A stretch of 47,595 bases of DNA from Lachnospiraceae bacterium. GTDB lineage: Bacteria > Bacillota > Clostridia > Lachnospirales > Lachnospiraceae. Both the position numbers and the translations under genes were made by a program. A model generated the notes under the pieces. The model was not told the DNA's origin. It made no database searches and saw nothing but the letters and a program-made list of their open reading frames with translations. The stretch covers positions 1 to 47,595 of the forward strand of contig JAUNIR010000010.1 of NCBI GenBank assembly GCA_030523345.1, read 5' to 3'. Shown here one piece after another: positions 1 to 1,752 of this stretch (positions are counted from its first letter, which is position 1; each line of letters opens with the position of its first letter).

Positions 1-308
1 GACATCATACATACAGAAATGGTATTCCTACAACATCAATCCTTACAATTACATCTAATGTAACATATGGTAAGGCTACAGGTAACACACCTGATGGACG
101 TAGAAAGGGACAGCCATTCGCTCCAGGTGCTAACCCAATGCACGGTCGTGATACACACGGTGCTGTAGCATCACTTTCATCAGTTGCTAAGCTTCCATTC
201 AAGGATGCACAGGATGGTATTTCAAATACATTCACAATTATCCCAGGTGCTCTTGGTAAGGAAGATCAGGTATTCGCTGGTGATATCGAAATCGATTTAA
301 ATAAATAA
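1..308 (+). CDS. pflB: Pyruvate formate-lyase core polypeptide, C-terminal end (5' part outside window), lacking the glycyl-radical domain
   Basis: Read in frame 3 from position 3 to a TAA at 306-308. PFL converts pyruvate and CoA to acetyl-CoA and formate in the cytoplasm. The visible 101 residues match the conserved PFL block before the radical domain: NTPDGRR, then [13 protein letters not shown], then SVAKLPF and [12 protein letters not shown]. In ordinary PFL the chain continues after the LGKEDxV segment for about 80 more residues containing the RVSGYAV radical loop. Here it instead ends in a short unrelated tail ([11 protein letters not shown]) and stops. The missing part is encoded at 598-840. 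The Cys-Cys active site lies outside the window, so PFL identity rests on this block. The C-rich codon choice suggests high expression. The identity is secure; the split is read directly from the sequence. Confidence 0.93.
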
Positions 309-313
309 TAAAT

Positions 314-360
314 GTCTTGCTCTTAATGAGTAAGACAACCCCGGAAGGGGGCTAACCCTT
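314..360 (+). promoter_or_regulatory. Tandem intercistronic hairpins after the PFL core
   Basis: Two hairpins lie in the 70-nt gap between the PFL core stop and the next gene. The first has a 9-bp stem with one G-U pair (314-322 with 328-336, loop TTAAT). The second has a CCCC/GGGG stem closed by a GGAA loop (339-350), and AAGGG/CCCTT (345-349 with 356-360) is an alternative to it. No U-tract follows, so this is not a classical terminator. Inference: an RNA-stability or processing element that sets the ratio of PFL core to the small downstream proteins. Confidence 0.5.
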
Positions 361-378
361 GTTGAAGGAGGTAATAAC

Positions 379-582
379 ATGGCAGATAATACAAATATTG
401 ATGATTTAATTGCATTCCTTGATGGCTCAGCTGAAAAGGGTGTTGGTCATATCAATGTTGATACAGATGACATGTCAGAAGAGAATGTGAATGTACAGAC
501 AATGGGATGTACAGACTGTAGTCGTACTCCACTTGCATGTTCCGTTCCAACACTCCACCAGGGATTAGATGACTACAAATAA
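379..582 (+). CDS. Small Cys-rich paralogue of the PFL radical-domain docking region (function unknown)
   Basis: A 67-residue protein with a strong Shine-Dalgarno (GAAGGAGG, about 9 nt before ATG). Residues 1-27 align with residues 1-28 of the next gene (shared M-A-x-N, ID-L, LDG, KG, H-x-NV; about half identical), which is the docking segment in front of the radical loop of PFL. From residue 28 the resemblance ends. There is no RVSGYAV and so no radical glycine. The tail instead holds C44-x2-C47-x6-C54 and H60, a possible metal or disulfide site. It sits 70 nt after the PFL core and 15 nt before the radical-domain gene, so all three are probably co-translated. Inference only: it may occupy the same site on PFL as the radical domain, as a cap, assembly factor or redox sensor. 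I do not recognise a described family. Confidence 0.85.
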   Translation: MADNTNIDDLIAFLDGSAEKGVGHINVDTDDMSEENVNVQTMGCTDCSRTPLACSVPTLHQGLDDYK

Positions 583-597
583 TAGGAGGATTTTACA

Positions 598-840
598 ATG
601 GCAGCAAACTCACAGCAGATTGATAACCTTGTGAACTTACTTGATGGATATTCAGTAAAGGGTGGACATCATCTTAATGTTAACGTTCTTAATAGAGATA
701 CTCTTCTTGACGCTCAGAAGAACCCAGAGAAGTATCCTCAGCTTACAATCCGTGTATCTGGATACGCTGTTAACTTCATTAAGTTAACACCAGAACAGCA
801 GGCTGATGTTATCTCAAGAACATTCCATGAGGCTATCTAA
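598..840 (+). CDS. grcA: Stand-alone PFL glycyl-radical domain (GrcA/YfiD-like)
   Basis: An 80-residue protein equal to the C-terminal domain of ordinary PFL. It has [10 protein letters not shown] (8-18), GGHHLNVNV (22-30), [16 protein letters not shown] (43-58) with predicted radical Gly55, and the usual end EQQ-DVI-RTFHE. The Shine-Dalgarno is AGGAGG, about 8 nt before ATG. The radical on this glycine is made by PflA and starts catalysis through the PFL active-site cysteines. E. coli YfiD/GrcA is a spare copy that repairs oxygen-cut PFL. Here the PFL core upstream has no such domain, so this protein is probably an obligatory subunit and not a spare. The symbol grcA is by similarity. A strong terminator follows at 855. 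Confidence 0.93.
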
Positions 841-999: not shown

Positions 1000-1752
1000 A
1001 TGATAGGTCGAATACATTCATTAGAGAGTTTTGGAACAGTAGATGGACCAGGAACAAGATTTGTAGTCTTTTTCCAGGGATGTCCTATGCGCTGTTTATA
1101 TTGTCATAATCCAGATACATGGGATCCACGTGGTGGAGAAGAAATGACAGCAGAATACATTCTTGAACAGTATGAGAGAAATATTGCATTTTATCATGGT
1201 GGTGGAATTACTACTACAGGTGGAGAGCCTTTACTTCAGATAGACTTTTTAATAGAACTTTATGAGAAAGCAAAAGAGAAGGGTATTCATACATGTCTTG
1301 ATACATCAGGAATAGTATTTAATCCTAAAAATGAAGAACTTATGGCTAAGTTTGACCGACTTATGAAGGTTACAGATCTTATTATGCTTGATATAAAGCA
1401 TATTGATCCGGTACTTCATCAGAAGCTTGCTTCACAGCCTAATGAAGGAATACTTGCTTTTGCACAATATACAGCTGAAAAAGGTGTAGATTTGTGGATT
1501 AGGCATGTAGTAGTTCCTGGACTAACAGATGATGATGAGTACTTGTATAAGTTAGGTTATTTTATTGGTGGACTCAGTAATCTTAAAGCCTTGGATGCAC
1601 TCCCATATCATACTATGGGAGAAGTTAAATATGAGAAGCTTGGAAAAGAATATCCACTTAAGGGTGTACCTGCTATGGATAAGGATGAGCTTATTAAGAA
1701 AAAGCAAGTAATTATTAACGGAATTAAGGCTAGAAGAGCAGAAAATAAATAA
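1000..1752 (+). CDS. pflA: Pyruvate formate-lyase-activating enzyme (radical SAM)
   Basis: A 250-residue radical SAM enzyme, the usual PflA length. It binds a 4Fe-4S cluster through the CxxxCxxC motif in GCPMRCLYCHNP (about residues 28-39). It uses S-adenosylmethionine to abstract hydrogen from the radical glycine of PFL, here Gly55 of the separate domain protein. The N-terminal IHSLESFGTVDGPG and the SAM-binding TTGGEPL motif are typical. It has its own promoter and is bounded by terminators on both sides, so PFL and its activase are separate transcription units. Because the target is a small free subunit, this activase may work on the isolated domain; that is inference. Confidence 0.96.
   Translation: MIGRIHSLESFGTVDGPGTRFVVFFQGCPMRCLYCHNPDTWDPRGGEEMTAEYILEQYERNIAFYHGGGITTTGGEPLLQIDFLIELYEKAKEKGIHTCLDTSGIVFNPKNEELMAKFDRLMKVTDLIMLDIKHIDPVLHQKLASQPNEGILAFAQYTAEKGVDLWIRHVVVPGLTDDDEYLYKLGYFIGGLSNLKALDALPYHTMGEVKYEKLGKEYPLKGVPAMDKDELIKKKQVIINGIKARRAENK

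Follow-up and report, generated by a model that had tools for sequence, protein, structure and literature searches.

Is the pyruvate formate-lyase (PFL) encoded at the start of this Lachnospiraceae contig a naturally split enzyme whose glycyl-radical domain is a separate subunit, or is the free domain a spare part for a complete PFL encoded elsewhere? PFL is a central fermentation enzyme, which oxygen destroys by cleaving the chain at the radical glycine. In E. coli (GrcA/YfiD) and in phage T4 (Y06I), a stand-alone glycyl-radical domain acts as a spare-part protein for damaged full-length PFL. We analyzed a stretch of 47,595 nucleotides (assembly GCA_030523345.1, contig JAUNIR010000010.1), hereafter called the window, together with loci and genomes of relatives.

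A PFL core gene without its glycyl-radical domain

The contig begins within the core gene, of which the last 101 codons are present on the forward strand (positions 3 to 308); the resulting frame of 101 amino acids is open at the contig start and closed by a TAA stop codon at 306 to 308. A profile search placed this fragment at positions 576 to 665 of the 744 positions of TIGR01255 (138 bits), and it is 94% identical to residues 579 to 679 of the 679-residue core of a relative (L006), complete cores in relatives being about 679 residues long. Core residues 1 to 32 matched the end of another contig (C121) of the window's assembly, and residues 33 to 578 were not found in a full-core search of this assembly, a draft of 258 contigs that is 91.6% complete. 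In an alignment with E. coli PFL (PDB 1h16), the core ends at about residue 681 and is thus without the final strand of the barrel and without the glycyl loop, the break between core and domain corresponding to residues 681/683. The active-site Cys-Cys pair (C406 C407), which lies outside the window's own fragment, was invariant in the cores of all 30 aligned relatives. The structure predicted for the core (30 rows) was poor, with a mean pLDDT of 57, and the fold matches of this model, with rmsd values above 18, are no more than consistent with PFL.

The missing domain is encoded on the same strand, 289 nt behind the core stop codon, by a gene for an 80-residue, GrcA3-like protein (598 to 840) that is preceded by the ribosome binding site AGGAGG (584 to 589). 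This protein matched PF01228 (83 bits, positions 50 to 106), scored just under the cut-off of the NCBIfam family GrcA3 (NF038360; 157.7 versus 158 bits), and resumes the TIGR01255 profile at positions 664 to 743, where the core match has ended. Its RVSGYA motif lies at 751 to 768, and the predicted radical residue, Gly55, is encoded by codon 760 to 762. The initial annotation had claimed that the core stops before its glycyl-radical domain and that the domain (RVSGYAV) is a gene of its own with a strong ribosome site; both claims hold at these coordinates, and the spacing it gave agrees with the 289 nt measured. The gap between the two genes houses a conserved 67-residue gene with its own ribosome binding site.

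A hairpin followed by a run of T, resembling an intrinsic terminator, was identified on the forward strand at 855 to 885 from sequence and folding (–22.5 kcal/mol over 841 to 900) and would end the transcription unit of core, small gene and domain ahead of the gene for PflA, the radical-SAM activating enzyme (1000 to 1752, forward strand; TIGR02493, 284 bits against a cut-off of 231.75). A second hairpin (313 to 337, forward strand; –27.0 kcal/mol for the fold of 301 to 380) lies between the core and the 67-residue gene and is possibly an mRNA processing or attenuation element. It is no general feature: in several relatives, for example L003 and L006, the gap measures only about 20 nt. Convergent to pflA, the reverse strand encodes a 63-residue DUF1858 protein with a CLGCPAS motif (1825 to 2016; PF08984, 82.9 bits). 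A MecA-type adaptor protein is also encoded on the reverse strand (2048 to 2794; PF05389, 237 bits).

No full-length PFL was found in the window's assembly or in four congeners

Searches with PF01228, PF02901 and the full core revealed no complete PFL in the window's assembly (91.6% complete), and no other Gly_radical or PFL match except core residues 1 to 32 on C121. Likewise, four congeners with 99% complete genomes (G121, G127, G146 and G147) contained only the split pair and no other Gly_radical match. In the genus search, seven other frames of 774 to 1046 residues matched the domain family, five of them being 847 to 868 residues long. Two of the seven (L084 and L086) were rejected as other glycyl radical enzymes, their identity with the core in the aligned part being 28% and 22%. 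An 808-residue frame in G143, considered as a core-domain fusion, was likewise discarded, the sequence there consisting of separate genes in the order core, domain, dithiol gene.

The PFL model was also run against 200 Lachnospiraceae genomes drawn evenly from the family, a sample that may overlap with the named relatives. Among the matches listed, there were 150 rows from 142 genomes, with weaker-matching genomes uncounted, and the match ends of these rows fall cleanly into two groups, at 742 to 744 or at 663 to 704. Full-length PFL only was found in 72 of these 142 genomes, split PFL only in 67, and both in 3, so that about half of the family genomes with a PFL among the matches listed (70/142) carry the split form.

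With no second PFL detected in this genome, an obligatory subunit is the strongly suggested role of the domain, and we put the probability of a natural split PFL of this kind at roughly nine in ten. The initial annotation's proposal of an obligatory subunit is thus supported, both in the draft assembly and in the four more complete congeners, where a second, full-length PFL was looked for and not found. That the domain merely serves, in the manner of GrcA/YfiD, as a spare for a complete PFL encoded at another locus is very improbable. Its score at the edge of GrcA3 and the incompleteness of the window's assembly would fit such a role, as would the existence of domain copies away from any core, which make up 26 of 80 loci kept from 583 relatives; the upstream sequence exceeds 700 nt in 22 of these 26, and among those 22 there are 12 that lie directly behind a gene for a Crp/Fnr-type regulator. 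A spare role may therefore exist in addition. However, the domain gene of the window sits after a core gene that lacks the domain, neither its assembly nor the four congeners yielded a full-length PFL, and 67 of the 70 split genomes have none among the matches listed.

Truncated cores beside a stand-alone domain, which the initial annotation had suggested looking for, are widespread in relatives. In the stretches examined, the split core ends at the same place in 143 of 170 loci, with a stop codon in all 143 and a separate domain gene in 142. The 80 kept loci are a set in which close relatives of the window's domain are over-represented; a core end is present in 53 of them, and all 53 stop at this place. 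Such a truncation is far beyond chance. In split loci, the core, the small gene between, the domain and usually PflA cluster together. Split cores of relatives exceeded the TIGR01255 cut-off of 994 bits in 70 of 70 cases among the matches listed, a score for which the window's fragment is too short. A broken core gene, whether by frameshift, sequencing error or pseudogene formation, can be virtually dismissed: the gene is indeed cut by the contig start, and the draft assembly is fragmented, yet the same core end recurs in the 143 loci, including the isolates Eisenbergiella tayi DSM 26961 (L039) and Lachnospiraceae bacterium 28-4 (L030), the split rows score as PFL, and dN/dS is low for both small genes, so that the stop codon at 306 to 308 is not a sequencing error.

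A third gene encodes a small dithiol protein

The gene in the gap (379 to 582, forward strand), with the ribosome binding site AAGGAGGT at 365 to 372, encodes a 67-residue protein, here called the dithiol protein, with the Cys-rich C-terminal tail GCTDCSRTPLACSVPTLHQGLDD. Its cysteines are Cys44, Cys47 and Cys54 (codons 508 to 510, 517 to 519 and 538 to 540). The initial annotation had described a two-part PFL; the natural split with a stand-alone domain is borne out, and a third part, this protein or a corresponding tail of the core, had been overlooked.

Profile comparison (hhalign) showed that residues 3 to 31 of the dithiol protein resemble residues 4 to 32 of the radical domain (probability 87%, E 3.7e-6), and the protein carries its Cys-rich tail in place of the radical loop of the domain. 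In 43 of 43 rows from close relatives, 18 columns were invariant (D9, D15, G23, H24, N26, T41, G43, C44, C47, A53, C54, S55, V56, P57, T58, L59, G62 and D64), whereas remoter dithiol proteins retain only two of the cysteines. The dN/dS of the gene was 0.04 to 0.09 in the three of seven pairs that allowed its computation; four of the seven were saturated, and one more had a dS of 3.1. Judged by these low ratios, the 67-residue frame looks like a working gene. Profile searches found no Pfam family over the cut-off and no PHROG, and in NCBIfam nothing except a weak match of residues 4 to 28 to the start of GrcA3. A sequence search of PDB chains with the dithiol profile gave no match up to E = 1. 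When modeled in isolation, the protein shows one N-terminal helix and is otherwise mostly unordered (pLDDT 56).

Altogether, 113 small dithiol proteins with two to five cysteines were collected, 19 of which have only two. The spacing of the cysteines in dithiol elements is variable and ranges from CC, CxC and CxxC to CxxxxxxC. Two of the proteins (L124, 4147 to 4314; L125, 4263 to 4478) stop just past the first CxxC (CTDCAK and CTTCSQ), without the ACxxPTL end. The gene order core, domain, dithiol gene was seen in two genomes (L083 and L099), so that the small gene is no mere remnant of the spacer between core and domain.

The dithiol accompanies the split state as a small gene or as a core tail

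Across the 143 split-core loci, 112 have a small dithiol gene beside a core without tail cysteines, and 29 have no small gene and a core tail with at least two cysteines. Neither form was found nearby in two loci (L151 and L154), and no locus has both. In the 53 core-end loci among the close relatives, the small gene is present in 52, and the remaining core (L082) has a tail with two cysteines. The 29 tails carry a close Cys pair near the C-terminus, as in CGNQACNIPNI, CASGACISPTL and DCACCEPN. Tail-bearing cores drop the segment that resembles the start of the domain and keep the cysteines, which makes the dithiol the shared feature of the two forms.

The same alternation was observed among the 70 split genomes of the family sample (among the matches listed): 44 have a small gene beside a core without tail cysteines, two of these genes (in G009 and G019) ending early, and in 24 the core itself has a tail bearing two or more cysteines. 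One or the other form is present in 69 of the 70, and both forms in none. The dithiol profile (E below 1e-9) matched 51 of the 200 family genomes, namely 45 of the 70 split genomes, none of the 72 with full-length PFL only, and 6 outside the listed PFL matches. Among full-length PFLs, only 1 of the 23 examined has cysteines at this place. The dithiol thus accompanies the split state.

Two genomes deserve separate mention. In G001, a dithiol gene (L129, 4129 to 4401) lies on a contig other than that of the split core and domain (L154), and no core was found beside it. In G110 (L151), the order is core, activase, domain, and the split core has neither a dithiol protein nor a Cys tail, the sole such case among the 70 split genomes.

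Phylogeny and distribution

When 46 split cores were placed in a tree with 23 full-length PFLs, they formed one group that encloses three full-length PFLs, L178, L175 and L180 (SH-aLRT 95). A tree in which the split cores were held as one clade was not rejected (p-AU 0.054). The best tree suggests one split followed by two re-fusions, one in L178 and one in L175 with L180. The full-length PFL of L178 (124 to 2424) keeps cysteines in its linker (VTCGCEEVTC) and is apparently a re-fused split PFL; the linkers of L175 and L180 have no Cys. On the best tree, tail and small gene swap seven times, with three to four changes forced by well-supported branches. Well-supported branches provide only four independent contrasts, in none of which tail and small gene go together, a number too small for a test (sign test, median p 0.25).

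The dithiol profile matched 17 of 393 genomes in a sample of the class, and this search revealed split loci in other families (G448, G358, G271, G295, G399, G442 and G470); the PFL matches listed for the class sample are all full-length, split loci being seen there only through the dithiol search. Within the genus, 18 of 29 genomes have a core end together with the domain and 3 have the domain alone, while G131 (99% complete) has neither.

Relation to known enzymes

The split enzyme closely follows PflB (TIGR01255; E. coli 1h16): core and domain span E. coli residues 10 to 681 and 683 to 758, respectively, the Cys-Cys pair is kept, and PflA is encoded nearby. It differs from PflB in consisting of two chains instead of one and in having the dithiol element, which among the 23 full-length PFLs examined has a counterpart only in the single case mentioned above. 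As with GrcA/YfiD, one would expect the stand-alone domain of the window to bind to a PFL core and to be activated by PflA; in contrast to GrcA/YfiD, the searches found no full-length PFL that it could repair, and gene order ties it to the core. Moreover, the best YfiD-type match in the PDB (6owr) aligns to the window's domain only from residue 18 onward, leaving its N-terminal segment unaligned. The family GrcA3, at whose edge the domain lies, is by name a cofactor, and the truncated core and the dithiol place it in a new context.

The best solved matches to the core are two PDB entries entitled 'Formate acetyltransferase', 38la and 38lb (1098 and 1135 bits). The first ends at LGKE, like a bare core, and the second continues past the core into ECDMCEM, like the core tails described here. 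By sequence, both resemble the cores of split PFLs. Neither is matched by the radical domain at E 0.01, and neither was among the matches of the fold search, whose library extends to 8 April 2026. These entries and the naming of GrcA3 indicate that split PFLs are probably known to others, including a group with structures of split cores. A search of open-licence PMC papers found none on a natural split PFL, and the relevant passages of PMC13252398, PMC9403272, PMC7478625, PMC11528403 and PMC12338860 do not mention one. The initial annotation, which was not aware of a described two-part PFL of this kind, agrees with this literature and has to be qualified in view of the two structures and the named family. 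As far as searches of open-licence PMC papers reach, the dithiol protein and its exchange with the core tail are undescribed.

An engineered split of E. coli PFL is instructive. According to PMC8683613, a core cut at residue 695 bound YfiD below the detection level and was activated 32-fold less, and once activated it was as active as the wild type. Going by this account, splitting a PFL does not by itself guarantee function. In the natural enzyme the break comes about 14 residues before 695, so that the N-terminal segment sits on the domain. The reported poor performance of the engineered split with YfiD may have to do with the segment that the natural domain shares with the dithiol protein, to which the best YfiD-type match does not align.

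Possible role of the dithiol

According to the alignments, the core provides the barrel, the substrate sites and the Cys-Cys pair of the active site, and the 80-residue domain the last strand and the glycyl loop. In the model that we consider, by analogy to the chemistry of PFL and GrcA, the radical on Gly55 would be generated by PflA and handed by the docked domain to the Cys pair of the core; a domain cleaved by oxygen could be replaced by a fresh copy, as for YfiD/GrcA, in which case oxygen damage would cost only an 80-residue protein, as the initial annotation proposed. From its sequence, the segment common to the domain and the dithiol protein may be a docking handle. When the domain is out, the active site would lie open, and oxidation could reach its two neighboring cysteines. 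The dithiol protein might then fill the empty slot and keep the exposed Cys-Cys pair reduced until a fresh domain displaces the dithiol arm.

A precedent is class I ribonucleotide reductase, whose NrdA subunit has a flexible C-terminal tail with two cysteines (CESGACKI in E. coli). The short Cys-pair tails found here, such as CASGACISPTL and CGNQACNIPNI, are similar in appearance, with no homology shown. Unlike NrdA, PFL is not known to have a net redox step for which a reductant is required at each turnover. Tentatively, and aware that it may well prove wrong, we regard as the best fit to the observed pattern that the dithiol closes the open active site and reduces it again, much as the reductase uses its swinging C-terminal dithiol. 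The wider picture of a modular, self-maintaining glycyl radical enzyme, with a throw-away radical subunit and a dithiol arm (placeholder protein or core tail) for redox maintenance, is likewise conceivable and has the odds somewhat against it.

Alternatively, the dithiol protein could be a placeholder only, which competes for the docking slot, closes the barrel and shields the idle core from proteolysis, its cysteines being structural. Its resemblance to the N-terminal segment of the domain speaks for this, as does the proneness to proteolysis of E. coli PFL shorn of its C-terminal part, described in PMC8683613. We consider this explanation rather unlikely, since tail-bearing cores lose the docking-like segment yet keep the cysteines. 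A further explanation is that the dithiol, by giving up a hydrogen atom to quench the glycyl radical, switches the enzyme off before oxygen cuts it. Reactions between thiols and carbon radicals do occur, and the dithiol is tied to the split state; however, 22 of the 23 full-length PFLs examined manage without it and the role is a predicted one, which leaves this explanation doubtful.

Benzylsuccinate synthase and 4-hydroxyphenylacetate decarboxylase are glycyl radical enzymes with small Cys-bearing subunits. The dithiol protein, too, is a small Cys-bearing partner encoded beside a glycyl radical enzyme, and the 113 collected proteins have two to five cysteines, which could point to a metal or Fe-S subunit. 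It differs from those subunits in that it resembles part of the radical domain and has no sequence match to them (PDB, up to E = 1). As its profile matches no PDB chain to that threshold, 19 of the 113 have only two cysteines and the spacing varies, a metal or Fe-S subunit is improbable.

If reduction of the open active site by the dithiol is true, a glycyl radical enzyme would here have a subunit dedicated to its redox maintenance, working like the tail of ribonucleotide reductase. Many bacteria of the gut and rumen seem to carry the radical on a renewable part of 80 residues, which is annotated as a cofactor. Split and dithiol together may explain how strict anaerobes could survive brief exposure to air, the enzyme being repairable. 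The locus also offers a natural two-part enzyme in which to study how a radical is installed in trans, and it draws attention to a small, unannotated protein whose role can be tested.

The core-less domain copies behind Crp/Fnr-type genes (L012, L019, L033, L046, L051, L059, L060, L063, L072, L073, L077 and L004) look like a regulated spare supply. In L064, two copies of the domain lie in one stretch behind a gene for a Crp/Fnr-type regulator.
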